Shown here: positions 1 to 59,814 of the stretch, in pieces
How positions within the stretch are numbered: position 1 is the first letter of the stretch
Layout of the letters: the number at the start of each line of letters is the position of its first letter
Source of the DNA: Sphaerolaimus hirsutus
Lineage: Eukaryota > Nematoda > Chromadorea > Monhysterida > Sphaerolaimidae
Length of the DNA stretch: 64,000 nt
Direction: 5' to 3'
NCBI GenBank assembly: GCA_964036195.1
Contig: OZ038459.1
Location: 16,799,206-16,863,205, forward strand
Notes under the pieces: model-generated
Databases searched by the model: none
What the model saw: only the letters and a program-made list of their open reading frames with translations
What the model was told of the DNA's origin: nothing
Made by a program: the position numbers and the translations under genes

Positions 1-409
1 GGGTATTTCGAGGGGGGTTATCTTTTCACCAGAAATTTCTACAAAATTCCCAGTACTAATTTGTTGTTTTTAATGTACTCAGATGTAGGGTTCAAACGGG
101 ATCCCGATCCTGAATCCCGAGAAATTTCGGGATTTTTGGTCCTGATCCCGATCCCAATCCCGAAACCTCAATCCCGATCTCGATCCCGATCCCGAGATTT
201 TGAAAATCCCAATCCGATCCTGAAAAAATGTCCCAATCTTGATCCTCATCCCGGAAAAATCCACAGACACAAAAGGTGCCAGAAATGGCCTTTTAAAGAC
301 CCATTTTGTATGCAGTTTGCACAAAATTTGCGCGCAAGCGCACTTTTCCTCACCTCCCTGTTTATCGCTGTTGCGTGGGCATGGACACCACTACAAATGG
401 AGTTGATAC

Positions 410-1306
410 TAGGGTGTCAAAAAATTTTTTTTACGGAAAACGGAAAGGTAAAAATTTTTCACTTTACGGAAAACGGAAAGGTAAAAAAATTTCACTCAGC
501 GGAAAATGGAAAACGGGAAGGTAAAAAAAATTGTTGGCCAGAAAATGGAAAACGGAAAAATGAAATGCCGGAAAACGGACAACGGAAAGCGAAATTTTCA
601 TGGAAATGGAAAAAAATAAAGTGAAACTTGCATGGTAATAGACAAATTTGCAGAAGGAATACCTGCATGCAGATTTGCCTGTTTGGCTTTGATTGTGGTA
701 GCTGTACATTCTGCAACTATGGATCATGCCAGTAACTTCACTTGTAGTTCAAGCTTAACTGAACCAACAAAAAATCATCAAAAGGTAGCAAAAATACACT
801 ACAACAACAATAAGAATTTAGCAAAAGTGAACTTTGATGTAACTGAACAGTAAAAAGTAGAATCAGCGGACTGCAAAGTATGTGTCCAAAATTACTTTGT
901 GTTTTTTACAGATTTGGATACAGATAAAAATTATGAATGACAGAAGAACCTGGTAGTTGAAAACACCATAGTGGAAAAAGATAAATACAGATTGGAAAAC
1001 AATGGAAAAATGCTAGAAAACTGAAAATCGAGCCAGAAAATGGAAAAATGGCCTGGAAAAATGGAAACGGAAAGGTAACAAATTTTCAGCCGGAAAAGGG
1101 AAAAGTGGGCTGGAAAAACGGAAATGGAAAGGTAAAAAATTTTCAGCTGCCGGAAAACGGAAAACAGAAAGGTAAAAAAATTTTGGCCGCTGGAAAACGG
1201 AAAACGGAAAGGTAAAATTTTTTCGGCTGTCGGAAAACGGAAAGGTAAAAAATTTTTCCTGCAGAAAGGTAGAAACGGAAAACGGAAACGGAAATTTGAC
1301 ACCCTA
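410..1306. mobile_element. hAT-like MITE with GGAAAACGG subterminal repeats
   Basis: The ends TAGGGTGTCAAA and TTTGACACCCTA are inverted repeats. The exact 8-bp target duplication GTTGATAC occupies 402-409 and 1307-1314. Both ends are lined with 'ggaaaacggaaagg' repeats. The centre has no coding potential; the Lys/Asn-rich reading frames here are translations of the repeat. Confidence 0.9.
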
Positions 1307-1349
1307 GTTGATACAGTACCCATTACCGTAGTTTAAGGTTAATACACAT

Positions 1350-2126
1350 TAGGGATGGCTGAAGTTTTTTTCAAAGGTTTTTTTCAAATGAAAAGGGTTT
1401 TATTTTTTTTTTAACACGACCATCAAAACCATTTTTTTAAACCTTGGCCAAAAATTTTAGTACTAAGCACTAGGTATTCTGCAAATTTTTGGGCGCAAGC
1501 GCGCAATTTCACCTGCACTTTACTATTTGTGGTTCTTTTCATTAAATAAATAAATAAATAAATGATATTTGGGAGTGTTTGCATTGATCTTATAGCAAAC
1601 TGTGATTATCCACGTTTACGGTGTACCGCTCCAATACAACTCATTCATTGGTTTTGAGACATTTTTAGTGTAAAAGCTTCCATTTGTTCCTGTTATTGTG
1701 TCATAATAAGCCGAGATATGTTAGTGTAGTATATAATATCCAGTCAATGTGCCTTCATATACTTGTACAGTGTGAAAAATAACTGCTAATGAATTAGCCT
1801 TCTTTTGTAACCTAATTAAAACACTATTCCATGGCCAACTTCACTTAGTCATGAACATTCGACAAAAGCTGATATACGTAATAAGTTGACATATTCAGTA
1901 CATAACGGATATTCTTGACAGAAATCACCACTTATAATGCTATATCATTACTCTACAGCCATTCTATGACTATATCTAACATCACAAAGTACTGTCACCA
2001 GTCTGATTTACCTGTATATGCTGACTCATGGCCATATCTGGGAGCTTTGAAAGAAAAATGGTTTTATTTTAAAATAAAACCCTTTTTTGAAAAAAAAGTT
2101 TAAAAAACCTTTTTCGGCCATCCCTA
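1350..2126. mobile_element. hAT-like MITE with AAAAACC/GGTTTTT subterminal repeats
   Basis: The ends TAGGGATGGC and GGCCATCCCTA are inverted, with the exact 8-bp duplication ATACACAT (1342-1349 and 2127-2134). The core, from 'agtactaagcactaggtat' to 'atatctgggagctttt', also occurs in the copies at 4124-4802, 7837-8516 and 38573-39273. Confidence 0.9.
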
Positions 2127-2754
2127 ATACACATGCATATATGGTAGACAGTGGTGTGAATGGCAATGCCAGGCAGCCCATTGCGCAGTGCCTAAATGAA
2201 TCTATAGCATTGTTTTGGATGCCAATTTAATGTTTCAGGCATCCATTGTTTTTGGTGTTTTGGGTCATTTTGTGAAATATCAGGAAAAAAACTCCCTGAA
2301 AACAAATTTTTAGGCCAAAATCCCGATCCTGAAAAAAAGCCAATCCCGATCCTGATCCCGAAAGCCCAATCCCGATCCCGAAATTTTAGAAACATTCTGA
2401 TCCCAATCCCGAAACCCCAATCCCGATCCCAATCCCAAAATTTCAAAAAGCCAATCATGATCCCGATCCCAAAAAGTCAATCCTGTTTGAACCCTACTCC
2501 GATGTACAAAAATGTACAAAACCACCATGTAAAAGACTCAATAGACTTATATTGAGGTATGTAGCTAGTATTTATAGACCCTGGCATTTTACAGGGTCTA
2601 ATTCATGACACATGACATTTTACACTTTACCGGGTATTTTACATGGTCTTGGACTGCCTCCTGGGGGTATTTTGAGGAGGATCAATTCAAGGAGTGATAA
2701 TTCGAGGTAATACAGTACATGCATTCCCCCTATCACTCACTATATACTACTTGC

Positions 2755-4123: not shown

Positions 4124-4802
4124 TAGGGATGGCCAAGGGTTTTTTTCAAAGGTTTTTTTTAAATAAAAAACGTTTTATTAAAAAAAACCCGACCATCGAA
4201 ACCGTTTTTTTAAACCTTGGCCAGAATTTTTAGTACTAAGCACTAGGTATTTTGCAAAAAAATTTGCGTGCAGGCGCGCAATTTCACCCACTTTACCATT
4301 TGTGGTGGTTTTCATTGGTTTTGGAGCATTTTTAGTGTAAAAGGTTCCATTTGTTTGTGCTATTATGTCATAATAAGCCATGATATGTTAGTGTAGTATA
4401 TAATATATACAGATAATGTGCCCCACATACTTGTATGGTGTGAAACACCACTGCTAATGTGTTAGCCTGCTCTTATATCCTTATTTAAGCAGTTTTCCAT
4501 CACTTGAAGACGAATCATCGACAAAAGGTGATATCCGTAATAAGTCGACATAAAACAGATATTTTTGACAGAAATCACCACTTATAATGCTATCCCATGG
4601 CTGTAAAGCCATTCTATGGCTATATATAAGATCACAAAATACTGTCACCTGTCTGATTTACCTGTATCTGTTGACTCATGACCATATCTGGGAGCTTTTG
4701 AAAAAAACGGTTTTATTTGAAAATAAAACCCTGTTTTTGAAAGAAACGGTGTTTTTTATAAAAAACCCTGTCGTTGAAAAAAACCTTTTTCGGCCATCCC
4801 TA
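4124..4802. mobile_element. hAT-like MITE, same family as 1350-2126
   Basis: The ends TAGGGATGGCC and GGCCATCCCTA are flanked by the exact 8-bp duplication GTTCGGAT (4116-4123 and 4803-4810). The A/T-run subterminal repeats and the core 'agtactaagcactaggtat' are shared with the first copy. It lies upstream of the SOSS-B-like gene. Confidence 0.9.
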
Positions 4803-4810
4803 GTTCGGAT

Positions 4811-5547: not shown

Positions 5548-8500
5548 ATGGCTGCCGCTTCGGTTGAGGCTCCGAACGTTTCCGAACACAATTCTGCAGG
5601 GAATAATAGCAGTCAACGGTGCACATACATTCGTCATTTGGTGCCGAATATGCGCACTGTCAATTTGCACTTTATAATTTTGCATATCGGTGTGTTGGCG
5701 GTGTGCCAAAAAATTTTTCGCTTTGCTTTCAGTACTTTATCGAATATTTCCTGCCAAGGTTATATTATTAAGCTTGGGTTACACCCTCGGGTCAGAATGC
5801 TGCACATTATTGATCGTAAAGGGGAATTATATTGATAACGATAAGAAAAGGGGAAAGCAAAAAGCTTACCGCATAAATTCACCAACAAGATTAGTATTTG
5901 CTGCTTGGCAAGGTGCTGCATTGACGATTGAGCGTCAGAATATCATTTCCTAGCTTTTCCGCTCAACATAGGGTTCAAACGGGATTGACTTTTCGGGATC
6001 GGGATCGGGATTCACTTTTTGAGATTTCGGGATCGGGATCGGGATTGGGGTTTCGGGATCGGGATCGGGATTGGTTTTTTGAGATTTCGGGATCGGGATC
6101 GGGATTGGCCGGGATTGGGGTCACGGGATCGGGATCGGGATTGGGATAGGCATTTTTCCGGGATCGGGATTGGGTTCTAGGGATAGAGATTTTAGCCAAT
6201 TTTCTGGCATTCACAGTTGTTCATAAAGGTCTCAAAACACTGTTGGATGCCAGAAAAGTGGCATCAAATTGACGCTGGGGGTTTGCATCCACTTTTTTGC
6301 ATGCAAAAACGTCATTATTTCACTTCTTATAATTTCCACTAATTTTTCCGGGATCGGGATCCCGGACTTGGGAGTTTCTCGGGATCGGGATCGGGATTTG
6401 AAAATTTTCGGGATCGGGATCGGGATTGGTATTTTTGAGATTTCGGGATCGGGATCGGGATCGGGATTGGGGTTTCGGGATCGGGATCGGGACTGGTAAA
6501 TCCCGGAATTTCACGGGATCCGGGATCGGGATCGGGATCCCGTTTGAACCCTAGCTCAACACCCCAGTTTTGGCACAATTCCAAGTCCACTTTCTTCCTT
6601 CAGACCCGCAAGTGCGCCACACAACGAAAGGGCCAATGTGGAGTATGCAAATCGCGGACCAGTCCGGATCAGTCACTTTGAACGTTATGTATGAGGATTG
6701 TTCGGATCTCAGGGCGGCCGATATTGTGCGGATGAAAAATGCTTACACCAGTGTGCATAAGGTGCCTTCTTTGAATGGTTTGGGGAAGCTGTGGTTAACA
6801 TTAGGGTTGGGGAACCGAACCGAGAACCGAGCACTATTTTGGAACCGGAACCGAGCTTGAGAACCGAACCGGAACCGAGAACCGGCACTTATACCCGGAA
6901 CCGAAGTAAATACCCGAAAGAACCGAAATTTTCTAGGAATCTTAAAGTTTTTAAACAGCGTTTTTTCAACACCTACATCTAAGCCATTAAACAGCAGCTG
7001 AACATCTTGGTGCGTGTTCAGAATTGCAAAATTCATCATTTGCAAAATTTGCGTTTGCAAAATGATTGCGCGGGAGCGTGTAATTTCACATATACTCCAG
7101 CGACATTACACCTTACAATGAAATCTACCATATCCCACCTGAATAAAAGAACAAACATAAAAAAATTTCATCATATTTATCAAAATGCTTTGATAAATAT
7201 GATGAAATTTTTTATGTATGTTCGTTTATTCAGATGGGATATGATAGATTTCATTGTAAGGTGTAATGTCGCTGTAGTATTATCACAGGTAGTAGTTTTC
7301 ATTGGTTTTGTGGCAGTTTTAACCGTAGTTGGCAAAAGTTATTTATGTTTGTACCCAAAATAATACGTGTACTCAGACTCACTCGCGTACTACATAAATA
7401 CATTTACGTTCCCTCCAGAAAAAAACACCAGTACTCATTTACTCGTGTACTTTTTGAATGTACGCAAGTACAGAAAACTTATAAATGTTTGCTTTTACAC
7501 TTTTTTAAATACCAGTATTATTATAAGAACTCTGATTTCTGCATTCTACCATGAAATAATACCGTATTTCCTCGAAATCCCCCGGGGGGTTTATTTTTTC
7601 AGAGTGAGAATTTTGAGGGGGGGTTTAACGAGGGGGGTATTATTTCGCCAGAAATTTTTTGAAAACCAAGTACTAAATTGTTGTCTGAAACGTACGCAGA
7701 CGTTGAAAATGCAACAAAAATCGCCATTTATAAGACTCTAAAGACTTGTATAAGTGTGTAGACGTATAATCACTGTTCTCACATAACAGAGTCATCGTTT
7801 TTAACGTGTGTTTTGCATTACCCAGATGACTGAGGGTAGGGTTGGCCGATGTTTTTTTTAAAACGTTTTTTATTAAAAAAAACGTTTTTTTTGTAAAAAA
7901 AACATGACGTCCGAAATGTTTTAAAAAAACAAAAAACATCGACCGAAATTTTTAGTACTAAGCACTAGGTATTTTGCAAAATTTTTGCGCGCAAGCGCGC
8001 AATTTCACACGCAAATTGACATTGGTGGTTGTTTTCATTGGTTTTGTGGCATTTTTAGTATCAAAGTATCCATTTATATATGCTACCATGGGTTAATAAG
8101 CCGTCATATGTTGCTGTAGTATATAATATTGAGGTATGTGCTTCCATGTACCTCCACAGTGTGTAACTTCACTCCCAAAGTAACAACCTCGTTTTATAAC
8201 CTTGTTTGATCACTATTCCGTGCCAAACTTTACCTGAAGTCACGAACATTCGACTATAAGGCAATATACAAACGATATGTCGACAAAAAATGGATATTTT
8301 TGACACAAATCACCACTTATAATGCTATCCCATGGCTCCACAGACATTATATGGTCATATATAACATCACAGAGTATTGCCACTGTCTGATATACCTATA
8401 TATGTTGACACAAGGTTATATCTGGGAGCTTTTAAAAGAAAACGTTTTTTATTTAAAAAAACGTTGTTTTTTTAAAAAAACATCGAGTTAAAAAAAACGT

Positions 8501-11500
8501 TTTTTTTCCAACCCTAACTGAGGGGGGGTATTTCGAGGAAATACGGTAAGCTGTGATATGCTCCTGTAGTATGAAATATACAACCAATGTACTTACACAT
8601 GTAAACTTGGGTATATTGTTTTTCTGATGTTCAGCCGATTATTACCCGATACCCGGTTATTTTATCACCCGGAACCGAAATTTTGATCATTTTAGAACCG
8701 AAAGAACCGAACCGGAACCGAGTTTAAGAACCGAACCGAGAACCGGAACCGAAAATTTTCAGGAACCGAGAACCGATACCCGAACCGAAATCTTTTGGAA
8801 CCGAGAACCGGAACCGAAAATTTTGAAATTCCCAACCCTAGTTAACATTGTATAAATCTCGAGAGATTTTTATTTTTAAATGTAGAAATTATAAAAATTT
8901 ATATATTTATATATAGGTATATATTGGCATGGCCCGGGTTTTTCAAAGGTTTTTATCTTTTTCAGTGGTTAAAAAACGTTCTTTTTAAATAAAAACTGTC
9001 CTTGAAAAAAACACACTAATTACCTGAAAATACCTGATTACCTTGCAAATCGCAGGGCCAGCTGCACGTGAATTGCGGCAAGCACGGGGACTTTGTCAAA
9101 GTGGGCGAGTTTATGATGGCATTTGCAAAGGAGCCGAACATGAGCGAGTTCAAGGACGAGTATTTGCACGTGCAGCCGGACACTGGCGCCAAACAGAGAT
9201 CGGGCAAACACGAGTCCAGAGGTACGTTTGATTTGCAACATCGTGGAACCATAATACGAACTCGGAAATTCAAATAACCTGTCCCTGTGACAAATCCCGA
9301 TTCCAAAAAGTCGATCCGGTTGGAACCCTAGCTGAATGTTGTCTGTGTCTTAGTTTTCTAATTATCACACATTCACTTAAACAGAAACATGATGGGAATG
9401 TGAGAAATTTCGTTCAATCATTGCCCATTTCGTTAAGTTTCTTTTCTAAGTTTTATTGTACGGACATCCGAGTTGAAAATGCTTTTGTTTCAGGTGATCC
9501 GCGGTCAGGCGCCGGTGGCCAACCTCCGATGAAAAAAAGTAGGTAAATGGGGAAAACGTGAACTTATATTTGTAGATATTGTGTCAATTGTGCGGTTGAG
9601 AAACGTTATGTGCGGAAATCAGCCTTTTGATTTTTATGCCTGTGCGTGTTTGATCTCAGTGCTATGAATGTGTTTTTGTCGATTTTTCAAATGGACCAGA
9701 TTGTATTTAGGTAGTTGTTTATTAAGATTATTTATTTTTAGTATTTTCAATGCGATTAATTGAATTGGATAAAAAAGTAAACAAATGACCGGACCGAAGT
9801 TTTGATCAGTTTCTTTGTTTCCCCTTTAGCTTTGTTTCATTTTGTTCCCGGGTATCATTTATCATTTCATGCGGTGTTGGCCATGGGGTGGTAGCGTAAT
9901 TTTCAGTTCGCGGCAGTTCGCGGATAAAAATTAACGCTGGCGAGAGGAACTGCGCTGTCAACCGCTACCGTAACTCGTCAACTACTGCAGTGCCTGGAAG
10001 CGAAAACGTCCAGTCTGTTTTCTTTGAATTTGTGGTATATTTATGCGGTGTTGGTCATTTTACCTGGTTACCGTATTCGCCTTAACCCCTTGAATAATTC
10101 CCCCTCATAAATAATTCATGCGTGAATAATTCCCCCTTTAGGCTTGATCAATTTATGTCCAATTTGAAAAAAATTGGCATGTTATTGGTTATAAAGCATA
10201 TTTTGTGGATTGACTTGGCAGAAACATACTTCAAAAATTTGACAAAGTAATAATTCCTTCCCTTTAAACCTCCCTCGAATAGTTCCCCTCTAAAAATAGC
10301 CTCCAAGATTATTCGAGCAAATACGGTATATTCAATTTGATGCCATGTGATGTGGTCGTTGTTATACTTTCAGCTTCAATTTTGCGTGCCAATGTCCGTT
10401 TTTTGTCGCTTATCCACTACTGCGCAATGCGCACCACAATGTTTAAGACTAAGGCTATGTGTGCATTTTTACCCGCTGTGCCTGTAGACCTTAATTTTCA
10501 CACAAAATCGCTCATTTTCATACCATTTTACACATTTTCACCTTCAAAATCACTAGTTCATGTGTTTTATTGTCTATTTAAAGCTATTTCTTGTAGTATA
10601 TGTGCTTATATACCCATTTTTAGTCATTTTTCACCTACTTTTAGCGATTTTTCTACCTTTTTGCCTCATTATGAAAAAGCCTATACAATGAACCCCCAAA
10701 CCCCCAAAAGAATTTTTCTAGCTATCTATCCCTCCAGAGGAGCGATTAGCCATCTATCCAACCCCATGGAGGGTCAAAGTCTTGAATACTCCTGACATGC
10801 ACAGCGGGTAAACATGCACAGAGGCACAGGCCCATGTTTAATCGCACTCAACCAATCCCCTTTCAAGGGACAGACCCCCAGCCAGAAACGTGACCATGGC
10901 ACCACCAACTGCTGACAACTCTCGCTCTGACATGAGTGATGGCCACACTGCCATCTGTGGCACGGCAGCTGGGCCAGTGCAAAGTGCTGCCGTTGCTGTG
11001 TCAGCTGGGCACGGCCAGTTGAGCTTCGATTCTTTGTGCCAGGTTGGGTGATTGCGATTGGTGGATTGGGGGATTTTTTCCTATTATTGTCGTCGGTGGG
11101 TTTTTACCATGTGTTGGGCAGTTATTCGAAGGGAGGAGTTATTTTTCCTTAAGTGTCTAACATGGGGGAGTTATTCGAAGGAAGGAGTTATTTTCCTCAA
11201 GTGCCTATAGGGGTGAGTTATTTTTCCTCACGTGATTAACAGGGCGGAGTTATTTTCCCTGAAGTGCCTCACAGGGGGGAAGTTATTCGAATGGAGGAGT
11301 TATTTTTCATCGAGTCCCTAACTGGGGGCGTTATCCGAGGGGGAGGACTTATTCGAGGATTTACGGTATCACCATAACGGAACAGACTTCGACCACCAGC
11401 GGCGGGGGTGCGATGGATGAAAACCAACATCCAGTGGATATGGATGTCGATGTAGACCCCGTGGCTGATGATTGGTGAGCGTGCGATTGTGATTGGGTAC

Positions 11501-12597
11501 TTCGATCACGGTGAACAGCGCCATTCTTAATGCACGTTTTTCAGTCAAAATCAGTCGATTTCGGTTCCCGCTGTCAATGTTGACAACAATGTGTCAAATG
11601 TGAAAGATCTCCGCACCGATGCTCAACAAAGTTGGCGGGCTGATGTCGCCCTGTCTACCGTCAAGCCAAGTGCGCAATGTAAATGTCACTAGTGATGGAA
11701 AAGCGCCAGGAGATTGGCGCCAAAAGCGCCATGGCGCTTTTCCAAACCACAGCGCCAAGCGCCATGGAGCTTCTTGCTTTGGTGCTAGTACCAGCTTTTG
11801 CCGAGCGCCGTAGCGCTTTTCATGGATGTGGCGCCAAGCGCCACTGTAAAATAGCGCCAAGCGCCATTTCAATCACTAATGTCACACTGCACATGTTCAA
11901 TTGCAAAATGCGACACGCCTTTACCAAAACAATCGATCTTTAAATGACACAGGTTTTGCGAATGTCCCATTTTTCATGCTGTACCCGCCGCCGCCCCTTG
12001 GAGTGATCCCACCACTCGTGAATTTCAATCCCATGATGCCGATTTCGCGTGCGAATGCCAATGTTACAAACACCGAGAAGTGTGGCAACGGGTCAAGTGC
12101 CGTGATCAAGGTTTTTATTTTTTCACTCGCAGTGATGGGGAAGGGCCTGTAAAGGCAGTGGTGGGGTGTGCGTCAGCGCCAGAGCTAATAGGCGCTATTT
12201 ATTTTTCTACCAGCACTTTTGGCGCCATCAGCCAGGCACGCCAAGTTGTTTTTTTAAATGGCGGTCCCTTGTAAATAACAACGGAAAATGGCGCCAGCGC
12301 ACTTGGCGCTATTTCGTCAATAAATAAGTTAAATGTTTTTAAAATGAAATGAAAATACATTTTCCGGTTGTATGACATTCCGGATTTCTCAAAATACTCC
12401 CCCTCGAAATTCTCACTTTGAAACAATCACCCCCGGCCCCGGGGGTAATTCGAGAACATACGGTATTTACTTTGTAAATGAATATCTATTTGTGAATTTA
12501 CATTCTGCAGAGTCTGCGCACTCCTTTGTGGCTGCAAAATTACAAGCTCGGCATGCAGGGAATGTATGCAGACAAGCAGGTGGCGATGGAAAAGTAA
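5548..12597 (+). CDS. NABP2-like: SOSS complex subunit B / NABP2-like single-stranded DNA-binding protein (multi-exon)
   Basis: OB-fold ssDNA-binding protein of the SOSS-B (NABP1/2, hSSB) family, which acts in DNA-damage signalling in the nucleus. Exons: 5548-5689, 6604-6761, 9056-9221, 9494-9542, 10874-11042, 11386-11474, 11545-11678, 11953-12110, 12511-12597; all phases join and give 383 residues. The OB fold (first ~150 residues) is clear: 'YIRHLVPNMRTVNLHFIIL', then 'MQIADQSGSVTLNVMYEDC', then 'GDFVKVGEFMMAFAKEPN', matching the family's KPGLKN-, KVADKTGSI- and LQKIGEFCMVY-like segments. Exons 4-9 encode a Pro/Ser/Asn-rich tail, longer than the usual ~210-residue total and not recognised. 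The ATG at 5548 is the first in frame after an in-frame GTG. The 3' end is uncertain: the last donor (gttttt, 12111) is weak, and without that splice the frame stops at 12152. Introns carry several transposons. Exons 1-3 are strong; 4-9 are moderate. Confidence 0.8.
5969..6553. mobile_element. hAT-like MITE with GGGATC repeats in intron 1 of the SOSS-B-like gene
   Basis: The ends TAGGGTTCAAACGGG and CCCGTTTGAACCCTA are flanked by the exact duplication GCTCAACA (5961-5968 and 6554-6561). Both sides are long 'cgggatcgggat' arrays. It ends only 50 bp before the exon 2 acceptor at 6603. It is the same family as 86-2496. Confidence 0.92.
7101..7271. repeat. Near-perfect 170-bp hairpin inside the GAACCG element
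   Basis: The arm 'cgacattacaccttacaatg' and following bases (from 7101) pair with '...cattgtaaggtgtaatgtcg' ending at 7271, around a short central turn near 'caaaatgctttg'. The inverted copy is at about 46953-47124. Confidence 0.85.
7561..8551. repeat. CCGTATTT-family palindromic element interrupted by a hAT-like MITE
   Basis: It starts 'accgtatttcctcgaaat' followed by C-rich sequence and ends 'gtatttcgaggaaatacggt'. Flanking TA dinucleotides suggest a 2-bp target duplication. The insertion at 7837-8516 splits it. Confidence 0.75.
7837..8516. mobile_element. hAT-like MITE with AAACGTTTTTT subterminal repeats
   Basis: The ends TAGGGTTGGCC and TCCAACCCTA are flanked by the exact duplication ACTGAGGG (7829-7836 and 8517-8524). 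The core is near-identical to 38573-39273, for example 'cacttataatgctatcccat' and 'ccactgtctgatatacctat'. Confidence 0.92.
10070..10330. repeat. CCGTATT-family palindromic repeat (intron 4 of the SOSS-B-like gene)
   Basis: It begins 'taccgtattcgccttaac' and ends 'attcgagcaaatacggta', with 'aataattccccc' words inside. A one-ended relative lies at 11100-11370 in intron 5, ending 'ttattcgaggatttacggta', and a degraded copy at 12381-12470. Bases 10500-10810 hold a separate repeat with 'ctatctatcc' and 'cttatatacccatttttag' words, also seen at 12880-13400 and 36480-37000. Confidence 0.6.
11690..11877. mobile_element. GGCGCC-rich hAT-like MITE directly after a splice donor
   Basis: The ends TAGTGATGGAA and ATCACT, with duplication AATGTCAC (11682-11689 and 11878-11885). 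The interior is almost entirely GGCGC/GCGCC words. The left duplication overlaps the exon 7 donor region of the SOSS-B-like gene (GTAAAT at 11679-11684). Confidence 0.85.
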
Positions 12598-13455
12598 CGA
12601 GATTTTGTTGCAACTGTATCATAAATTTTTGTGTGGATCATAGGGGTTTAGTAGGAGATAACTCAGTAGCCCCCCTGATGTTTTCAGTTATAAATTGCTT
12701 TCTGAGAGGTCGCAACTCGCAACTATCTAATTTGGCCACTCAAGAACTCCACAATCTATCTACTAAGCCTCTGTTGTCGATTTAATGTCGATCGATTCGT
12801 GCCGCTTAAGCTTGTTATAAAGTAAATGTTTGCACTGTACTGTTGAGCTGCAAGCGTAGGGTGGACCAATGAAACCTAAACAGGACAAAAATGATGGGTG
12901 GCAGGGGTCTCCTAGGGGGGGGGGCTGGGGGGGGCTGCCCCCCCCAAATCGGCCAGCTATCTATCTATCCCGGAGGCCGCTCAGCTATCTATCTATCCCG
13001 AGGCAAAATTTTTGGCTACTACCCCGAAAGACCCCCCCCCCCCAAATCGCTCAGCTATCTATCTATCTGGAGTGGTTTTTGAGAAATTTTGCCCCAATTT
13101 TCGCTCAAAATCACTAATGTTCGCACCATTTTATAGTTTTTCACCTTCAAAATCGTGCTTTCCGGCTATGTACATGGTTATATACCTATTTTTAGCCATT
13201 TTATACCTACTTTTAACTGATTATTAGCGATTTTTCCCCCTTTATGCCTTCTTAACCTTGAAAAAGCCTATATATTGTGCCCCCGCCAGCCCCCCCCCCA
13301 AGCCCCCCCCCCCAGCCCCCCCCCAGAGAAATTTTCCAGCTATCTATCCCTCAGGAGGAGCGATTTGCTATCTATCCAGCCCCCGCGAGGGCCAAAATCC
13401 TGGAGACCCCTGATGGGTGGTACAGATACAAAAATGGGCATTCACGATTGATGAC
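12598..13455. repeat. 3' flank of the SOSS-B-like gene and a CTATCTATC repeat element
   Basis: Bases 12598-12880 are plain sequence, probably 3' untranslated or intergenic. Bases 12880-13400 are an imperfect repeat with runs of C or G, several 'gctatctatctatc' blocks and 'tatacctatttttagccatt'. Relatives occur at 10680-10800, 28650-28850, 36480-37000 and 61020-61090. Pro-rich reading frames here are artefacts of the C runs. Confidence 0.6.
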
Positions 13456-20536: not shown

Positions 20537-20583
20537 AATACATTTGTAAATATCCAAAAAATGATCATAAATAAAACATTTTT

Positions 20584-25018: not shown

Positions 25019-25062
25019 AAAAGTGTTGAAATCAATATACATACCTACAATTAGTAGAGGTA

Positions 25063-46800: not shown

Positions 46801-47926
46801 AGAGTTATGTATTTAAAGTAAATGTATTTATGTAGTATGCGAGTGAGTACGCGTATTATTTTGAGTACAAACATAAATAACTTTTGCCAACTATGGTTAC
46901 AATTGCCACAAAACCAATGAAAACTACTACCAGTGATAATGTGTATACTGCAGCGACATTACACCTTACAATGAAATCTACCATATCCCATCTGAATAAA
47001 CGAACATACATAAAAAATTTCATTATATTTATCAAAGCAATTTGATAAATATGATGGAATTTTTTCATGTTTGTTCTTTTATTCAGGTGGGATATGGTAG
47101 ATTTGATTGTAAGGTGTAATGTCGCTGGAGTATATGTGAAATTACACGCTCCCGCGCAATCATTTTGAAAACATATGAATTTTGCAATTCTCAACACGCA
47201 CCAAGATGTTCAGCTGCTGTTTAAAGGCTTAGATGTAGGTGTTGAAAAAACGCTGTTAAAAAACTTTAAGATTCCTAGAAAATTTCGGTTCTTTCAGGTA
47301 TTTATTTCGGTTCCGGGTATAAGTGCCGGTTCTCGGTTCCGGTTCGGTTCTCAAGCTCGGTTCCGGTTCTCGGTTCTCGGTTCCAAAATAGTGCTCGGTT
47401 CTCGGTTCGGGTCGGTTCGGTTCCCCAACCCTAGCCCCCGGTAGGAGATCGAATACGAATATTGTACTTTGGTAATCGTAATAGAATTTTCAAATTACTG
47501 TATATCCTTGAATAAGACCCCGGGAGAGTTATTATTTCGTCAGAAGTATTCGAGGGGGAGTAAGTGTTTCCTCAGAAAACATGGACTTAGTTCATCGTAT
47601 GAATGCATTCCGTCAATTCATGTAATCGAGGTATTTACGGTTCAACTACTACAAAAATGTGTGTACACTGCGTGCGCGTAATGTATCTGCTGTCGCTGCC
47701 AATGTCGATCGTTTTTAAAATTATTCAGCGTCTTTTTCATTCAGAGGGGGGTTATTCAAAATAGGGGGTTATTTCGAGTAGGGTCTTATTCGATGATATA
47801 CGATATGTAAATTTATGATTGAGTAACTTTTTAACTGACTCCAGCCATGTTTTCCCATCGCAGGTAATGTCAAAGTTTCCGGTGGTGCAACATTTCGTGT
47901 TTGGCAGCTTACTGCCATTTGAGTAG
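37865..47926 (+). CDS. PTPA: Serine/threonine-protein phosphatase 2A activator (PTPA), seven exons
   Basis: PP2A activator, an ATP-dependent chaperone/prolyl isomerase that remodels the PP2A catalytic subunit in cytosol and nucleus. Exons: 37865-38032, 38356-38571, 43029-43252, 44482-44606, 45161-45261, 45650-45757, 47864-47926; all phases join for 334 residues (human about 323-358). Family signatures, in order: '[12 protein letters not shown]', '[12 protein letters not shown]', '[20 protein letters not shown]' with 'FLCCLYRL', '[20 protein letters not shown]' with '[10 protein letters not shown]', '[11 protein letters not shown]', '[20 protein letters not shown]' and '[15 protein letters not shown]', and the C-terminus '[16 protein letters not shown]'. 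The start has a Pro-rich leader before the first helix. Intron 2 (4.5 kb) and intron 6 (2.1 kb) are filled with transposons, and the exon 2 donor lies inside a transposon target duplication. No missing conserved segment is evident. Confidence 0.97.
38565..38580 (+). promoter_or_regulatory. PTPA exon 2 splice donor formed by a transposon junction
   Basis: Exon 2 ends ...GTGATGCAG and is followed by GTAGGG. The G comes from the 8-bp target duplication GATGCAGG and TAGGG is the first five bases of the inserted element. The second duplication at 39274-39281 carries the presumably ancestral site, CAG|GTATAC. Confidence 0.8.
38573..39273. mobile_element. hAT-like MITE with AAACGTTTTTT repeats at a PTPA splice site
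   Basis: The ends TAGGGTTGGCC and TCCAACCCTA are flanked by the exact duplication GATGCAGG (38565-38572 and 39274-39281). It is near-identical in core to 7837-8516, which suggests recent movement of both. Confidence 0.93.
39539..39969. mobile_element. hAT-like MITE with CAGGGACGTATCCAGG ends in PTPA intron 2
   Basis: The ends CAGGGACGTATCCAGG and CCTGGATACGGCCCTG are flanked by the exact duplication TATGCCGT (39531-39538 and 39970-39977). The interior has G/C runs and a few GGCGCC words. The following 39975-40330 is a degraded CCGTATTT-family repeat. Confidence 0.9.
41861..42307. mobile_element. MITE with GGCCGTAAAGTAAA repeats
   Basis: Inverted arms 'gtaaacccggccgtaaagta' and 'tactttacggccgggtttac' are flanked by GTGTATTC (41853-41860 and 42308-42315). 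The outermost bases (GGCGAG) do not fit the hAT consensus as well as the others do. It contains 41916-42233. Confidence 0.75.
41916..42233. mobile_element. Innermost hAT-like MITE with ACGTTTACTCG repeats
   Basis: The ends CATAGTTGTTAGAAC and TTTTAACAACACTG are flanked by the exact duplication CCGTAATG (41908-41915 and 42234-42241). Related sequence occurs at 7360-7540, 30140-30240, 31440-31690, 48680-48940 and 49200-49360. Confidence 0.85.
43410..44430. repeat. Degraded GAACCG-family element in PTPA intron 3
   Basis: 'ctagggttgagaccccgaac' at the left and 'gaaccgagaaccgatttttg' at the right resemble 6802-8840. The right terminus and the target duplication are no longer recognisable. A single GGCGCC patch lies at about 43810-43850. 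Confidence 0.65.
44877..45096. repeat. CCGTATTTGCTCGAA-type palindromic repeat in PTPA intron 4
   Basis: 'taccgtatttgctcgaattt' to 'attattcaagcaaatacggt'. It lies 64 bp before exon 5. Confidence 0.75.
46014..46120. repeat. Solo end of a TAGGGTTGGGAA element in PTPA intron 6
   Basis: 'ttagggttgggaattttaaa' is followed by 'ggttcaggtatcgggtcc' and 'cgggtcgggtcgg' words. No matching right end was found. Confidence 0.5.
46299..46475. repeat. 177-bp palindromic repeat in PTPA intron 6
   Basis: 'ggccagtcccgcaagtttac' pairs with 'caacttgctggactggcc', with 'gagtcaagt'/'acttgactc' words inside. The neighbouring hAT-like element inserted immediately at its right edge. Confidence 0.75.
46481..47433. 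mobile_element. Intact hAT-like element of the GAACCG family (inverse orientation) in PTPA intron 6
   Basis: The ends TAGGGTTGGGAA and TTCCCCAACCCTA are flanked by the exact duplication GCCCCCGG (46473-46480 and 47434-47441). 'cggttctcggttcc' arrays and the central hairpin at about 46953-47124 match 6802-8840, without that copy's nested insertions. Confidence 0.93.
47499..47805. repeat. Degraded CCGTATTT-type palindrome in PTPA intron 6
   Basis: 'actgtatatccttgaataag' to 'cttattcgatgatatacgat'. It lies just upstream of the last PTPA exon. Confidence 0.55.
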
Positions 47927-50665: not shown

Positions 50666-53600
50666 ATCAGTGAATGGTGATATTGATAGTACCTACTCAA
50701 CTATATTGATATGTAAAATTTGTAATAATTACAATTGTGTGCACAGGTTCGATTGGCTGTCACATTTTACATTTTTTCTAATCAAATTTGCTAACATAAT
50801 GAACAAGATGGGGTCTGAAGAAAAACAGAATACATACTTGGACCTGCGCGCCAGGGACATGTGCGATATTTGATTTTATGCATTTTTTATCATTTGTATA
50901 CATTTCCTAGCCAAACTTTTTATCCAAAGCATGTCGCATTTGTATTTGTGTATATTGAGACACTTGACTATTTTATCTGCAAATCTATGTCGTGCTTTAT
51001 CCCATGTGATTTTCATTTGAATATCAATAATTTATTCATATCAAATGATGGGTTTCTAAGTATCAAAAAAGTTACACCTGCCCTGACAGATGATGTACAT
51101 CTCAGTGAAACCAACATGTACTCACATTTCGATACTTACAAACTCATATCGAATTCTGAGGATACATTTGTATTCACATGCAATAAAACTGCATCGCCAA
51201 AAAGAAGCCTGAAGGGTAACATTGCCAATACAAGAACTACTGCATTCAAGCTACTAGATGACATTCTAATGGCACTTCTGACCCTATTGTTAAATATTCT
51301 GCATTTTTTTGATGGACGGTGTTTAGGTAGAACACTGAGCACCTCAAACCATTTATTTGTATTGTTCATTCTCATGGCATTTTTCACTCCGGCTAGTGTG
51401 GGAGTCACCAACACTGGCTCTGCGAGTGTAGTGAGTACTTTCTTGGTACTCTCCCTCTTGTATCAAAATGTGAGATGCTTTGCAATCAATCAGTGTGTTT
51501 ACTGGATACTATTTTAAAAACTGGAGCAGATATACTATGTTTTACAGAAACTCAGTATGAAAATGTGCCGAGTGTGCTCGTGTGGGGGGGATACAACACA
51601 CTCCACACATACAAATCCAATAAAGGGACTGGGGGTATCTGCACATATATTAGAAAAGGTATACAATATTCACAAAACAAAATTGCAAAGGGTTTGGAAC
51701 ACAACATCATGAGCATTAAGATAACAGATCACCCAGCATTCGAAAATAGGAGACCCATTGACATGCAGTCAAAACCTATGCATAGTCAATTACTGCATCG
51801 CAAATCTTACAATTCAAACAGCTCAACCAATTCAAACAACTTAAACATACTTGTTGTTTACATGGAAAACAATACTAAAAGCCGAAAATCAGCTGCAATC
51901 AATAAGCTCAACCAGGATATATTGCTTGAGCTAGAGAACATGGTGAGGAAGAACAGAAGCAGTGGAGAGAATACACTTATAGTACGAGATTTCAATGGGC
52001 ATATTGGATTTGATGCTCTTGGGATTGAACATAACAATGACATCATAAATGCAAATGGTGTTATGATCAGGAAGTTTCTAGCATCGGCTAGTCTCTCCAT
52101 CCTGAACAGAGAAATGACAGGGCTATAGACATACAGCAGGAAAAATGCTAAATCAATCATTGATCTCCATGCACCAGGGGAAAATTAATGAGTGTGGCGA
52201 CCTAAGCAGTATACACTCTGATCATAATGCAATGTTGATTGACTTGGAACACACAGTTATGGTCACATACGACATGAAGAAACAACTTTGTCCCAAAACT
52301 GATGCAGAAGAGATATCATTCCAAAAAAAAATTCAAAAAAGAGGGGTACTGGCTATGACTCACTAATTGGGGCGATACAGGCTGCTTCAGAGCAACACAT
52401 CACTGATGCTAAACCAATCAGGGTGCCCTCAGGAATAAAAAACAATGTAAGACAATAGCAAAACTGAGAAGGAAGCTGAAAAGAAAAACCGCTGTATCCA
52501 ACACAGGGATCACTCACGATGATTCACTTAAGGACACAAAAACTTATAATGACCTAAAATGGGAAAGAAAAACACTGAAACATATGAAAATAAAATTATG
52601 TAGGAAACAGAAAGAAAAATACATTAAAAGGTTGGCAGTTCAATCTAAAGCTCATACAATGAATGACATATTCAAAAGGGTTAATCTAATCAGACAGGAT
52701 GGCAAATCCATCATACACACAATCTATGACCACACCGGTACACAGATCACAAGCAAAGATGGGATGAACAAAGAAATGAAGACAGCATGGGGGGTAGTTA
52801 TGAAAAACAACCCAGGGGCAGATCTCGGTGAAGTTGGATCTGTTCAAGCAGTACAAAGTAAACCAAAAGAGCTACAAAAATTAAAATCTCCAATCACTAC
52901 AATTGAGATAGAAAAAGCTATAATATTAGAAAAAAAAACAATAAATTGGCTGGGACAACCGGAGTATATCATGAACACTTGAAACTATTGGAGGATGAGC
53001 ATCAAGAGGTGCTTAGAAAAACGTTCAATACATGGTTTGCTGGAGGTATACTCCCAGAACCGGTATGCATATGCAAGATGATAAATACTACTACACAAAA
53101 AGGGAGATAAGGGAAATTTACTGAATTATCGTACCCTAGGCCTGTCATGCAATATTAATAAGGTCTACATGTCAGTGCTCAACAGACACTTGATAAGATG
53201 GTTGGAAGATACAAATGCCCTTACTGAAATGCAGGGGGGGTTTAGACCAGGCAGAAGAAAACTAGATAACATACAAATATTGAAAACATGCTATAACTAG
53301 GGTTGGAAAAAAATCGATTTTTTTTAACGACCCCGATTTTTTTTAAAAAAAATCGATTTTTTAAAAAAAAAATCGATTTTTTTAAATAAAAATCGCTGGG
53401 GTCAAAATTAGCCCCATTTCTGCCTAAAATCGCCTCTGGGGGTAATAAAAGCCATATAAATAGGTAAGGAGTGCACACTTATGTTTTCTGTGCTAATATA
53501 AGTATTGTAGAGCTTCGGAAAAGCGTGAAAGTCAGTTATTTTTAAGTGTAAAAGTGATTAAATTGGTATATTTGTGACGTGAATCACATTTCATCAACAA

Positions 53601-55560
53601 TTTGCAATTTTGTTTGCAGAAATAGCATGTTCTTGCTCAGAACAATATATAAATGATATTGGAAGTTGACGCGGATGCATTTGCATAAATTTTTGATGTG
53701 ACAACACAAAGCATAACTATGAATACTTCCTAAAATGATTCACAGCCTACCTTACACGCTTAAAAGCACACATAATGGGTACTACACCCCCAAAATTGGT
53801 TGTAAAAGCCATGAAAAAAAGCAACTGATGGATTGTATGCATGAAAGTGCGCGCTTGCGCGCAAAATTTTTGCATTTTACCTAGTGCTTTAGTACCAAAA
53901 TTTTTTGCCAGCGATTTTTTTTAAAAAAAATCGGTACGGGTGCTGCGATTTTTTAAAAAAATCGGAATTTTTAAAAAAAAAATCGCTTAAAAAAAATCGC
54001 TTGCCAACCCTAGCTATAACTATGCTGCAACTAATGGCAATCCATTTGTGACATGATTCATAGATGCTGGTAAAGCGTTCAATAGAGTAGACAGGAAAAA
54101 ACTTTGGCTGAAAATGGAATTGATGGGCATACCGAAACAATTGATAACAGCAATCTCTAATGTATACGCTCAAACTAAAGCTGTAATGACATATGGAGGA
54201 CATGAAAGTGACATATTAGACTACCTGATTGGAGTGGCTCAAGGGTGCTCACTCAGCCCAACATTGTATGCTATATACATACAAGATCTTGCTACAGAGC
54301 TCCTAAGTACAAATATGGGTACCAAATGTGGTGTGGGATTACATAAGATACCCGCACTGTTCTTTGCAGATGACATCATTCTTCTTGCCTCTAAAGATAG
54401 TGAACTAGAGCACCTGATGAACATCTTTAGCCAAAGGGCATGGAAATGTAGCGTAAGTATAAATGCATCCAAAAGTGAGGTGCTGCTCTGGGGGAAGAAC
54501 AATATACAAAAAAGATCTTGGTATATACATGTGGGAGATCAGTCCATTGGACATAAAGAGATAATCAATGAAACTGAGAAAATACAATATCTGGGAGTTA
54601 CAATCAATAGTGGAGAAGACCCATTCTCATCGCATAAAATGAATGTGATCTCAAACATGCAAAAATTGAGCAGCCTGATGGTGAGCGTCTTGCCACTGAA
54701 TACGGCCTACATCACCTGGAAAGCCTATGTGGTACAGAGGAGTATGTATGGTGTTGAAGTAACAGGCTTGAACGATAAACAACTAGCAGAAATAGATAAA
54801 ATATACATATCAACATTAAAAAAGGTGTTGAAACTACCAACAAGTTGCAGCAACAGTTCCGTACTTTTGGATGCTGATGGTATTTTACCATCAGACAAAT
54901 ACAACCATTTTACTATCAGACAAATACAACCATTTTACTATCAGACAAATACAACCAGCTAATTTTGACAAATGATAATTATATGTATAGAATGAACAAA
55001 TCACGATGGTTGGTCCGAGCGCATAAAGGTGACAAATGTCTGTCAAACAACAAGAGGCTACATATTGACAACACTAACAAGTACCTAGTAACAACCAGTA
55101 AGAACAAAATAGACCTGAAAGTAGATACAAGCAAACTACAGAAATCATATATTAAAAGACACATCTACCACCAGCGTAAGTTAAAAATAGAGATAAAAGT
55201 AAAGAGTGTGACTGCCATCAACCAAAGAGGGGGGGGAAATTGATCAGGCAGAGAGGAGTAATATACATTATAATAAGCTTAATTGGTTAGCAGCTCAGTA
55301 AAATGTGCTGAGAACAAGATCAGGAAAATCCCGCAAGATATGTAGATACTGTTCAAGCAGACATGTAAAGATAGTAGCTAATCTGCATCACATACTCTTT
55401 ATGTGTGGTGCAAATATACATGAACAACATAAACTTACACAAATACAGTGTACAATACCTTGCACATGGAAAGAAAACATTCTCGGAGCAAAAACATGTC
55501 ATGCGCACCAACAAATGTGCAATGAAATGATATGAAAATGTATCACACAGATAACCAATC
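50665..55560 (+). mobile_element. Decayed non-LTR retrotransposon (APE-type endonuclease plus reverse transcriptase)
   Basis: Broken plus-strand frames show, in order: a possible Cys-containing ORF1 remnant (50670-50873, 'ILICKICNNYNCVHRF'), endonuclease motifs ('YQNVR' near 51465, 'TGADILCFTET', 'TGGICTYIRKG', 'VRDFNGHIG', 'SDHNAML' at about 52220), and RT motifs ('QGGFRPGRRKLDNI' near 53240, 'FIDAGKAFNRVDRKKLW' near 54060, 'GVAQGCSLSPTLYAIYIQDL', 'FADDIILLAS' at about 54360). A C-terminal Cys/His motif follows ('CRYCSSRHVK...HHILFMC', about 55340). Frameshifts and stops make it non-functional. The layout fits the Jockey/CR1/L2-like side of the LINEs; the exact clade is unresolved. A hAT-like MITE (53298-54012) interrupts the RT. 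The 5' and 3' ends are not defined. Confidence 0.88.
53298..54012. mobile_element. hAT-like MITE with AATCGATTTTTT repeats inside the LINE
   Basis: The ends TAGGGTTGG and CCAACCCTA are flanked by the exact duplication GCTATAAC (53290-53297 and 54013-54020), splitting the RT frame. The core word 'gcgcgcttgcgcgcaaaatt' is the inverse of that in the 1350, 7837 and 38573 elements. Confidence 0.93.
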
Positions 55561-57660: not shown

Positions 57661-58008
57661 CAACCGGAAATGCAGAAATGCACAGTGCATACTAGACCAA
57701 TAGCCACGGCCTTCACCTCCAAAATTGCAGCGAAAGTTAAAGTCAAATATCAACCTATGTGTCCTCAGTCATCACTGACCATTCACGCAATACGACACGT
57801 AACAACAGTGTCACTCCTTTTTCACTTAGAGGAAAAAAAATCAAACTTTAATTTGCAATCTAAACCACAGGTAAAAATTATTCTTTTAGTCAATTTGCCA
57901 CACAAATTGTTGCCATCTCACTTGTATCACTTCTTTACTCAAAAAAAAACTCTCTAATAGATAAAAAAAATATAAAAATTGAAAAAAACACCTATTTACA
58001 TCACAGCG

Positions 58009-58193
58009 TCAACTTTGTGTCAGATCCTCAATACCTCCAATCCTTTCCTCGGCCAAATGGACACACAAAACACAATGGGGCACCGGAAAAACGGAAATAT
58101 ACATTGCGTTGCCAGTGTAACGCAGCAACATCGCCAAAAACGTCAACGCCACGTTCGCCCACTGAATCGCCCAAACCCAACGTCGAAGTAGAA
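58009..58193 (-). CDS. Possible hydrophobic exon, product unknown
   Basis: On the minus strand an open frame of 60 codons follows a potential acceptor (CATTTCAG). It reads 'RRWVWAIQWANVALTFLAML' then 'YISVFPVPHCVLCVHLAEER', with one membrane-helix-like segment. A potential donor GGAG|GTATTG lies near its end. No neighbouring exon was found and no family is recognised, so it could be chance. Confidence 0.2.
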
Positions 58194-58647
58194 CTGAAAT
58201 GTTTTGATTACTGTAAGCTCGGAAGTGTAAACAAACCTCTACATAAATTCACTATATGAACGGTATATACATTTACGTTTAAAATTTTTGGAATTTCAAA
58301 ATTGTTGACGCCCACTTTTACTCACAATGGCTCTATATCTCGTAATGCTTAAATAAAAATAAAAATAATGGCTATGAAAACACAATAATTATTTCAGTAA
58401 TGTTAAAATGCCTGTACAAATATGATAATGAATTATTCAGAATAGGTAAAGTCCCATCTAAAGAAACCTGTATGATAATTACACAATTAGTCACTTTGTG
58501 AACTGTTGGTTGAATATTTGCGAAATATGACAAGAAAGGCACCTTCTGATTGTAGGTGCGGAAAAACGTGATCAAGTGTAGGTACAGCTACAATTGGGGG
58601 TGATACGGTATACCTATATTTATAATACTTAATAGGCATTCAATTTA

Positions 58648-59814
58648 CCGTATTTCTTCGAACCCCCCTTGAATTAACCCCGCCCCTCGAAATACCCCCA
58701 GGTGTTTTTGAGCTGGGAAAAAATAACTCTCCCCTCGAAATACCCCCGTCTGGCATTATGTACATCATGTATGCAATGTACGTGATGTATATATTGGTCG
58801 CAGTTTGAATCGCAGCTACACATATACTAAAATAGTTTGTGTAGCAATAGACGTTGATATGTCCAAATATACATAGGGTTCAAACGATATGACTTTTCGA
58901 AATTGATATTCGATATTCGATATTTTTTTCTGAAACTTGATATCGATATTCGATGTTTTTTTCTGAAACTCGATATTCGATATCGATACGATATGGAACC
59001 TCGATATCGATATTCGATATTAAAAAATGGTCGATATTCGATATTTCGATATTCGATATTGCGATTTGCTTTTGGTATAGCAAGGCATATTTCAAGTGAC
59101 ATATTGTATTTTCATGTGGTTGCACGCATGGTTAATCATCTCTTTAGTTAAATGTGAATGGTACAAATGATTTTAACAAGGTTTACATCACTCAAAAGTA
59201 GAACATGTAGAAAAAAACATGATGAATCAATGTGTATCAGACAAATAACAATTGGTAGATATTACAGTTCATACTGATAACCTGATTGCTAAGGTCATGT
59301 TGCAAAAAATAGAATATCAGCATATCTGGCTTCAAATTTAGCACTCAAACAAAAATGACATTATAAGTACTGTACTTTTACTCATCTAATACAATTCTCA
59401 GATCAGATCAAGCACATCAGATCAATCATAAATATCTCAAAATGAAACAAAATCAAACTTTTTTTAGGGATACAATATAGGTTCGATATATCGAAAAAAT
59501 GGTCGATATTTGATATCGATATTCGATATTTTTTCAAAATATTGATATCGATATTCGATATTAAAAAATAGTCGATATCCGATATTCGATATTCGATACG
59601 ATATATCGTTTGAACCCTAAATATACCCTAATTGAACACTCCCATTACCGGTTTTGGGTGTATAAAGCGTATCCTTTACTATGAATTTCGTGAAAATTTC
59701 TGATGAAATAATAGCCCTCCCCCTCGAATATGCCCCCCCCCTCAAAATACCCCCCTCAAAATTTCCACTCTGAAAAAATAAACCCCCTGGGGTTATTTCG
59801 AGGAAATACGGTAT
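58648..59814. repeat. CCGTATTT-family palindrome split by a GATATC hAT-like element
   Basis: 'accgtatttcttcgaacc' at the left and 'tatttcgaggaaatacggta' at the right; the insertion at 58874-59619 divides it. Confidence 0.8.
58874..59619. mobile_element. hAT-like element with GATATTCGATA repeats
   Basis: The ends TAGGGTTCAAACGATATG and ATATCGTTTGAACCCTA are flanked by AATATACA (58866-58873) and AATATACC (59620-59627), one mismatch. It is the same family as 40825-42940 but without nested insertions; the cores share 'gcaaggcatatttcaag'. Confidence 0.88.

Follow-up and report, generated by a model that had tools for sequence, protein, structure and literature searches.

What do the dense arrays of short words just inside the ends of certain transposons do, and how can one genome hold so many sets of them on nearly the same ends? 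The question is raised by a stretch of 64,000 nucleotides (hereafter the window) from the nematode Sphaerolaimus hirsutus (assembly GCA_964036195.1, 348 Mb in 762 contigs; contig OZ038459.1, G000:C15:16799206-16863205 in our numbering). An earlier note, made from the letters of the window, had described its many short elements as a radiation of hAT-like miniature inverted-repeat transposable elements (MITEs) with TAGGG, TAGTG or CAGRG ends, 8-bp target-site duplications (TSDs) and family-specific subterminal motifs, and had suggested that the motif arrays are alternative transposase-binding codes. We followed these elements through the genome. The hAT-like tips, the 8-bp duplications and the family-specific arrays are confirmed, and the interpretation as a whole is partly supported. 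Our preferred reading, to which we give a probability of roughly 0.7, is that these are non-autonomous hAT elements, that the arrays are predicted docking sites for the transposase and that the codes changed in concert.

The elements of the window and of the loci fetched elsewhere in the genome were gathered in a catalogue of 99 rows, of which 95 belong to named families; an exact TSD flanks 83 of these 95. They are MITEs in the sense of short, high-copy elements with terminal inverted repeats (TIRs) and a TSD, without a full transposase: 78 of the 95 rows measure at most 1.4 kb, many of the longer rows hold nested elements, and the family ends number thousands genome-wide.

To assess the arrays, the top 6-mer was chosen in roughly half of a family's copies and scored in the remainder against 200 dinucleotide shuffles, leaving out two-letter words and five chimeric or doubtful rows. 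This held-out test covered 15 families; D', G, P, Q and R, with one usable copy each, stood outside it. In 14 of the 15, the word counts exceeded those of the shuffles 5-45 times (observed/shuffle mean: A 50/4.6, A' 13/0.9, B 153/15.9, D 57/8.1, E 22/0.5, F 77/3.9, H 20/3.3, I 12/0.8, K 50/9.4, L 39/3.9, M 15/0.5, N 15/1.4 and O 5/0.2). For C, the word GAACCG was counted 245 times in 9 held-out copies, compared with 11.6 in the shuffles, the C loci having been fetched by a tip pattern that contains this word. The family word was found in all held-out copies of these 14 families apart from one N copy, and in every held-out copy with a TSD of A, A', B, C, D, E, F, H, I, K and L; ordinary microsatellites absent from most copies, which the earlier note had named as an outcome that would speak against it, were thus not what we found. 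The remaining family, J, failed the automatic motif rule (0/0.06): with two-letter words excluded, its top word does not occur in the single held-out copy. In J ends, GGTTTT reaches 20.3 per kb, compared with a background of 1.0. Since held-out copies are kin, the array is established as a family-wide feature and not as proof of many separate origins.

Moreover, each word is nearly private to its family. When hand-set words were counted at 10-170 nt from each tip (six chimeric or doubtful rows dropped, one F and one G element added by hand), their density was 18-116 per kb in their own family, for instance 46 per kb for AAACGG in B, and mostly 0-3 elsewhere, giving a near-diagonal matrix. The exceptions are D', which carries the word of D at 96.9 per kb (the same code); N, with GGCGC at 18.8, TCGATA at 5.8 and GGGATC at 2.7 per kb; AAACGG in G (13.3) and J (4.7); CGATTT in K (5.9); and GTATTT or GGCGC at ~3 per kb in C, H, J, D' and K. 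The GGCGC of the N arrays is the word of F, despite the differing tips of the two families. In the element bodies, a family's own word reaches only 0-8 per kb, the arrays being confined to the last ~170 bp. Dense, family-specific arrays just inside the ends are therefore well supported by the held-out enrichment and the matrix. To call the motifs unrelated was too strong: the arrays are nearly family-specific, but those of H/J/I/S, A/A'/D and E/F vary on common frames.

The first of these series is that of H (4 copies), J (2) and I (2), which are homologous and align end to end. Their codes, ACGTTT, GGTTT and CGATTT, sit on a shared scaffold together with a fourth, TGATTT, in S, a single partial copy whose tip is CAGGGTTGG and whose TSD is unchecked. 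Body identity is 0.76 for H1-J2, 0.49 for H1-I1 and 0.50 for J2-I1 (blastn: H1-J2 73% over 707, H1-I1 62% over 743), and that of the 9-bp tips is 0.89-1.00. The body of S is 81% like J2 vs 55% I-like, and its array is 57% like J2; among the matches listed, TAGGGTTGG ends with a TCAATT core resemble, by eye, the other end of S. Within the terminal 117 nt, 7 of the 8 H/J/I copies lack any sister word. Counted from the tips without alignment, and omitting overlapping reverse sites, the left-end sites lie at 15, 28, 66, 80 and 93 in J2 and at 14, 28, 49, 67, 80 and 101 in I1, and the right-end sites at 18, 36, 73 and 94 in J2 and at 18, 37, 57, 77, 98 and 135 in I1. With coincidence taken as the same orientation within 3 bp (eight tests, fractions uncorrected), 6/9 sites coincide for J2-I1 (null 1.6, fraction 0.001), 5/9 for J2-I_L058 (0.005), 6/11 for H2-I1 (0.004), 4/11 for H2-J2 (0.015) and 3/6 for S-J2 (0.019), as compared to 8/14 (0.00025) in a same-family control.

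In the second series, A, A' and D have a common 13-nt tip but three codes, GGGAT, GGGAC and GATAT. The tip pattern TAGGGTTCAAACG occurs 5,983+6,013 = 11,996 times genome-wide (control 3+3), with D under-counted since the pattern's last letter (not T) excludes its second end type. The first 100 places listed, all on contig C1, continue with GGGAT (51), GGGAC (24), GATAT (18) or other letters (7), and a second site agrees with the first code in 81 of the 81 ends where it is readable, 12 being unread; the sorting rules, here and for the TAGTGATG ends below, were set after seeing the list. The code also agrees between the two facing ends of A and A' elements: pairs less than 2.5 kb apart, taken without a TSD check and by a pattern that misses the second ends of D, carry the same code in 25 of 25 cases (15 A, 10 A'; chance ~0.40 per pair), and all 25 join one L-type with one R-type end. 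D and the single D' copy have array and body in common (63-76% over long matches), with the tip TAGGGTTCAAAC or TAGGGTTGGGAC. The idea that the cleavage ends stayed fixed while the motifs diverged holds for the tip common to A, A' and D, but not for D vs D'.

The third series consists of E and F, with GCACC and GCGCC on a shared frame. Ends of the TAGTGATG type (pattern TAGTGATGKWAAAR) number 13,435 genome-wide (control 44), and 100 sampled ones were F/F in 61 cases, E/E in 16, mixed E+F in 7 and other or unread in 16. In the whole genome, TAGGGTTGG occurs 12,270 times (control 1,344) and the C end word TAGGGTTGGGGAACCG 581 times (control 0).

The assignment to hAT was examined from the duplications, the tips and the coding remnants. 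With the looser tip scan of the window (TAGGG, TAGTG, CAGGG or CAGAG ends with an exact flanking duplication), TSDs of 4, 5, 6, 7, 8, 9, 10 and 11 bp were found 73, 11, 7, 4, 16, 0, 0 and 0 times, and with the stricter rule those of 5, 6, 7, 8, 9 and 10 bp were found 3, 0, 1, 17, 0 and 0 times. When one mismatch was permitted, there were 23 pairs at 8 bp vs 13, 2, 2 and 0 at 6, 7, 9 and 10 bp; two of the 23, 17857-21250 and 23585-27021, were disregarded as probable chance pairs. The 8-bp duplication of the hAT superfamily is thus present in the window. The 95 named-family rows also have the short TIR starting with YA and a TAGGG/CAGRG-like tip, a partly circular observation because the tips belonged to the search rule.

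A genome search with PF05699 (hATC) gave 28 places, of which 25 could be assigned by their end words: 11 to B (TAGGGTGTCAA), 7 to K (TAACGATGGC), 3 to L (CAGAGTTG) and 4 to D (TAGGGTTCAAACGATAT), while L020, L031 and L035 allowed no such assignment. Two hATC-bearing D elements have a checked TSD, that at locus L019 (one mismatch) and that of the window itself, whose remnant at 42553-42503 (17 amino acids, E 5e-5) seems to resume, past an L insertion, with a second piece at 41261-41229 (11 amino acids, a weak match, E 0.32). By tblastn with the hATC of D, 150 of 407 candidates were scored, and the ends read at 21 of these were all B, D or D'; six of the 21 lie in newly fetched loci, with D at L061 and L062, D' at L063 and L066, B at L064 and, at L065, a truncated piece resembling D'. 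D'-type ends carry an hATC form with SSVxLECLxSC (by eye). In a tree of 14 hATC rows, K+L separate from B+D (100/100), and K (98/100), B (91/92), D (81/70) and the pair L012+L015 (92/83) are recovered. Elements with matching ends hold an hATC domain in B, D, K and L only; these four end types are of hAT origin, and their hATC domains belong to distinguishable lineages.

Some candidates did not survive closer inspection. When the catalogue rows were searched with the hATC queries (E 1e-3), a match in one E row lay in a nested B element and one in an N row in a nested D element, and there was none in A, A', C, D', F, H, I, J, M, O, P, Q and R; this search and the transposase hunt covered families other than G and S. 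A Q family with its own hATC lineage was dropped, as the Q-like end belongs to another element, 162 bp long, that has a TSD of its own (L049:4708-4869). That the hATC fragments are functional small proteins was likewise rejected, there being no sign of purifying selection.

The longest coding remnant is in a 6,006-bp L element, contained in the abutting loci L011 and L060, with an exact TSD (CGCCAAGG), CAGAGTTG ends and GTACG-type repeats at these ends. Its last exon matches PF05699 (E 4.9e-17) and the Hermes transposase in PDB (E 7.8e-13). Two exon pieces joined at a guessed splice match zf-BED at E 5.2e-5, above the family cut-off, and the unjoined pieces have no BED match; the element probably carries a BED finger, and none was seen for the other families. 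Candidate D and E motifs of an RNase-H-like DDE catalytic core were picked out in it by eye only. Its hATC row forms an unresolved fork with L012+L015 and K, at 75% identity to L012 and 49% to K. Its exact 24-nt end occurs 490 times genome-wide (control 0), and the MITE at L053:116-931 matches it at 90% over the first 186 bp and 92% over the last 132 bp. As it contains H and F stretches, this copy may be broken. The genome-wide search for hAT genes with matching ends, as the earlier note had proposed, thus returned hATC remnants in B, D, K and L and this one long L element, and no partner from another superfamily was met where this was testable.

Beside this probable BED finger, we note that a zf-BED search of the genome gave 8 matches, 7 of them on C1; six lie within 23 kb (G000:C1:7466186-7488779) and another 190 kb off. 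The cluster is perhaps a host gene array.

We propose that the elements are non-autonomous, mostly deletion-derived members of several hAT lineages, to which A, C, E, F, H, I and J probably also belong. The first 5-9 bases would be the cleavage tip, and the arrays that follow within ~150 bp are predicted binding sites, many per end, for the N-terminal BED-type zinc finger of the transposase. On the model of Ac, Herves and Hermes, the transposase would bind the arrays, its multimer docking by avidity and mobilising elements with its own code; different codes would then not be cross-mobilised. Within a lineage, the code would have changed concertedly at many sites and at both ends while the scaffold stayed homologous, and this is how we would read H/J/I/S, A/A'/D (GGGAT, GGGAC, GATAT) and E/F (GCACC, GCGCC). 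A DNA-binding domain that co-evolved with its dispersed sites would leave such a pattern, and the codes presumably changed together with the binding domain of the transposase.

Several observations weigh against this proposal. None of the families A, A', C, E, F, H, I, J and N yielded a transposase, but the ends were read at only 21 of the 150 scored tblastn places, and the other 129 may include one. Genome searches with DUF659 and PF14372 were empty, and their controls were likewise without a match. Truncation or decay affects most of the hATC copies read, and purifying selection was not seen in four B and four K copies (variable sites 5/2/3 and 7/7/9 by codon position; 7/10 and 13/18 variable codons non-synonymous). 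D and D' share one code, but their tips are unlike in the inner half and so, by eye, are their hATC sublineages; a new lineage therefore need not bring a new code. E vs F, and S vs I, are each one transition at a CpG, and the left array of J2 includes one H word. The coincidence of positions in H/J/I/S is only moderate: S-I1 and S-I_L058 each reached 2/6 (null fractions 0.28 and 0.29, not significant), and these motifs adjoin T-runs, which can favour alignment. Furthermore, maize Ds-like elements with at least 3 AAACGG words are described, in the available text of PMC3260210, as unresponsive to Ac, and the motif alone may thus not suffice.

The main rival is that something other than the transposase reads the arrays. 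Their words would be bound by a separate protein, encoded by the element or the host, for anti-silencing or another host-factor function, and would have diverged for that reason. VANC proteins offer a precedent: their targets are short tandem-repeat motifs that vary between related elements, and the proteins evolve jointly with these targets (PMC5735166, available text). The same source places VANC21 motifs in introns and upstream regions, whereas the arrays described here are restricted, at either end, to the outermost ~170 bp, with nearly none in the bodies, as expected of transpososome docking; moreover, no accessory gene was seen in the one long element read. We regard this explanation as unlikely.

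Slightly less credence can be given to neutral repeat turnover, in which slippage-expanded microsatellites within MITEs would each have fixed the word of the family's founder. The commonest word spacing in A, A', B, C and E is 5-7 bp, as in slipping tandem repeats, and MITE bursts copy one founder, which alone is enough to make all copies alike. However, slippage does not readily account for the same word at both ends of 25/25 facing A/A' pairs, for words in both orientations in near equal numbers except in E (71 to 39), or for the H/J/I words, which are non-tandem and mostly 13-20 bp apart yet at shared positions (J2-I1 6/9, but S-I 2/6), and the transposase-bearing 6-kb element also has such an array. 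Finally, decay of one ancestral code by CpG or other mutation, with no adaptive switching, is very improbable: single CpG transitions lead from F GCGCC to E GCACC and from I TCGATT to S TTGATT, and the sampled TAGTGATG ends include the 7/100 mixed ones, but the CpG observed/expected ratio of the window is 0.98, E arrays retain an intact CpG in CACCGG, the body of S is J-like and not I-like, H/J/I and A/A'/D differ by other changes, and the codes are discrete (81/81 two-site-readable TAGGGTTCAAACG ends, under the rules set after seeing the list).

A broader version of the transposase-docking proposal is put forward only tentatively. The arrays might be an address code that defines hAT compatibility groups within one genome, lineages having repeatedly switched address at many dispersed sites and at both ends, together with the DNA-binding domain of the transposase, and so having left series of specificity switches on an unchanged scaffold.

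These families may reveal how a transposase changes what it recognises. Transposon and transcription-factor evolution both pose the open question of how specificity can change when an element carries dozens of sites and the elements number thousands. Because H/J/I/S and A/A'/D hold tips and scaffold (H/J/I also part of the site positions) while the letters change, this question could be tested with a few BED domains and end swaps. Annotation based on TIRs may, in addition, lump elements that use different transposases.

Within the window, the end and motif reported in the earlier note are present at 15 of its 15 starting positions, its 46481 being 46480 here. The 8-bp duplication is exact at 410, 1350, 4124, 5969, 6802, 7837, 38573, 40825, 46480 and 53298 and has one mismatch at 86, 13456 and 58874; by eye, it was also read with one mismatch at 35581-35749 and, at 11690-11878, as an 8-bp copy overlapping the element's last A. 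The elements are given below on the plus strand unless marked minus, with an exact TSD where one sequence is quoted. An A element with the GGGATC code (86-2496; CTCAGATG/CTCCGATG, with the motif test) is host to a B element with the GGAAAACGG code (410-1306; GTTGATAC) and a J element with the GGTTTTTT code (1350-2126; ATACACAT). Another J element (4124-4802; GTTCGGAT) and another GGGATC-coded A element (5969-6553, minus; GCTCAACA) precede a C element with the GAACCG code (6802-8840; GTTAACAT), host to an H element with the AAACGTTTT code (7837-8516; ACTGAGGG). Next come a short F element with the GGCGCC code (11690-11878; AATGTCAC on each flank, with an overlap at the last A, by eye), an M element with CAGGGGTCTCC ends (12902-13412; ATGGGTGG), an E element with the GGTGCC code (13456-13756; TTGATGAC/TTGATCAC) and a longer GGCGCC-coded F element (28228-29156; GACACAAC).

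Further along are a Q element with CAGGGTTGG ends and A/T-rich subterminal repeats (32825-33858; TTACTGAG), a single-copy G element with the GGTACGG code (35581-35749; flanks GTCGTCAC/ATCGTCAC, by eye), an H element (38573-39273; GATGCAGG) and an N element with CAGGGACGTA ends (39539-39969; TATGCCGT). At 40432-42971, four hAT-like elements are nested, each with its own TSD: an outermost N element (40432-42971; AATGTCAG/AATTTCAG), a D element with the GATATC/TCGATA code, whose hATC remnant is split by the L insertion (40825-42940, minus; CCCCCGCC), an L element with CAGAGTTG ends and the GTATTTAC code (41263-42490; GGGCATGT) and, innermost, a short L element (41916-42233; CCGTAATG). They are followed by a C element with the GAACCG code (46480-47433, minus; GCCCCCGG), an I element with the ATCGATTTTTT / GCGATTTT code (53298-54012, minus; GCTATAAC), a D element (58874-59619, minus; AATATACA/AATATACC) and, beyond the range of the earlier note, an F element (61716-62799; ATCACATG). 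The I element sits between pieces of a decayed non-LTR retrotransposon at 51397-54962 (a weak endonuclease piece; RVT_1 1e-21).

An internal block, GCGCGCAAGCGCGCAATTTCA (at most 4 mismatches), is common to families with different codes. It lies in the window at 1491, 4266, 7068, 7987, 17335, 38721, 40713, 47137 and 53842 and, nested elements excluded, in 4/4 H, 2/2 I, 2/2 J, 14/18 C, 6/9 N and 0/4 A copies; a first count of 2/4 in A had come from nested J and C elements. None was found in B, D, E, F, K and L, and a reversed control gave 0 in the window. In H, I and J, the block adjoins the left array on its inner side, and it is possibly an ancestral promoter or host-factor site.

Other arrangements were seen among the genome-wide ends on C1. 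Among the matches listed, further variants of the C code include TAGGGTTGGGAACCCGACCCG and ends in ..TTTTCGGGTTCGG, i.e. an ACCCGA code. Three TAGGGTTGG ends whose core is GTCATTG follow each other in exact 160-bp steps at G000:C1:608602-608954 and are an element end turned tandem array. The same series of element ends at G000:C1:1721101-1727514 and 1817216-1823704, ~96 kb apart, suggests a segmental duplication.

Among comparable systems, maize Ac has the tip TAGGGATGAAA, from which the tips of B (TAGGGTGTCAA) differ. With its different TIR, B falls outside Ac/Ds, where Ac's 11-bp TIR goes with AAACGG repeats; the TAGGGATGG tip of J is close to that of Ac, but its array is GGTTTT. The VANDAL elements of Arabidopsis are Mutator-like elements with a TSD of 9 bp, and the 8-bp TSD found here sets the present families apart from VANDAL/VANC.

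The likeness to Ac/Ds extends to the 8-bp TSD, the short TIR, a hexamer in the terminal 200 bp, deletion derivatives and Ds-like classes that share the TIR, and B has the core word of Ac, AAACGG, repeats of which in the terminal 200 bp are bound by the Ac transposase (PMC3260210, available text). Unlike in Ac/Ds, several code classes here share one tip, each a large family. In the text available, the Herves transposase binds CG/AATTCAT, differing motifs being said to ensure specificity (PMC3143072), and the BED domains of Hermes bind subterminal AAGT-type repeats (PMC10368747); the premise that hAT transposases bind subterminal repeats is thus in print for Ac, Herves and Hermes. Herves, Hermes, Tol2 and Tag1, whose transposases bind short subterminal repeats that differ between elements, are single elements of separate species, whereas here a related series occupies one genome on homologous scaffolds. 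VANDAL/VANC resemble our families in having element-specific motif arrays that diverge with a DNA-binding protein, but this protein is an anti-silencer and its motifs lie in introns and upstream as well, not only at the ends (PMC5735166, available text). Mar of Drosophila likewise comprises short non-autonomous elements of the hAT superfamily, and the opening of its abstract mentions neither dense family-specific arrays nor a code series (PMC3517528). Among the matches listed for open-access titles and abstract openings, with subscription papers and Repbase outside this scope, no within-genome hAT series with one tip and several array codes was found. To this extent, the statement that no such set had been described together stands, while subterminal repeats themselves have long been known. 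That each hAT has its own subterminal motif is a principle already in print, as far as the available texts go (PMC3143072, PMC3260210, PMC10368747); new here is the serial, concerted change of code within one genome.

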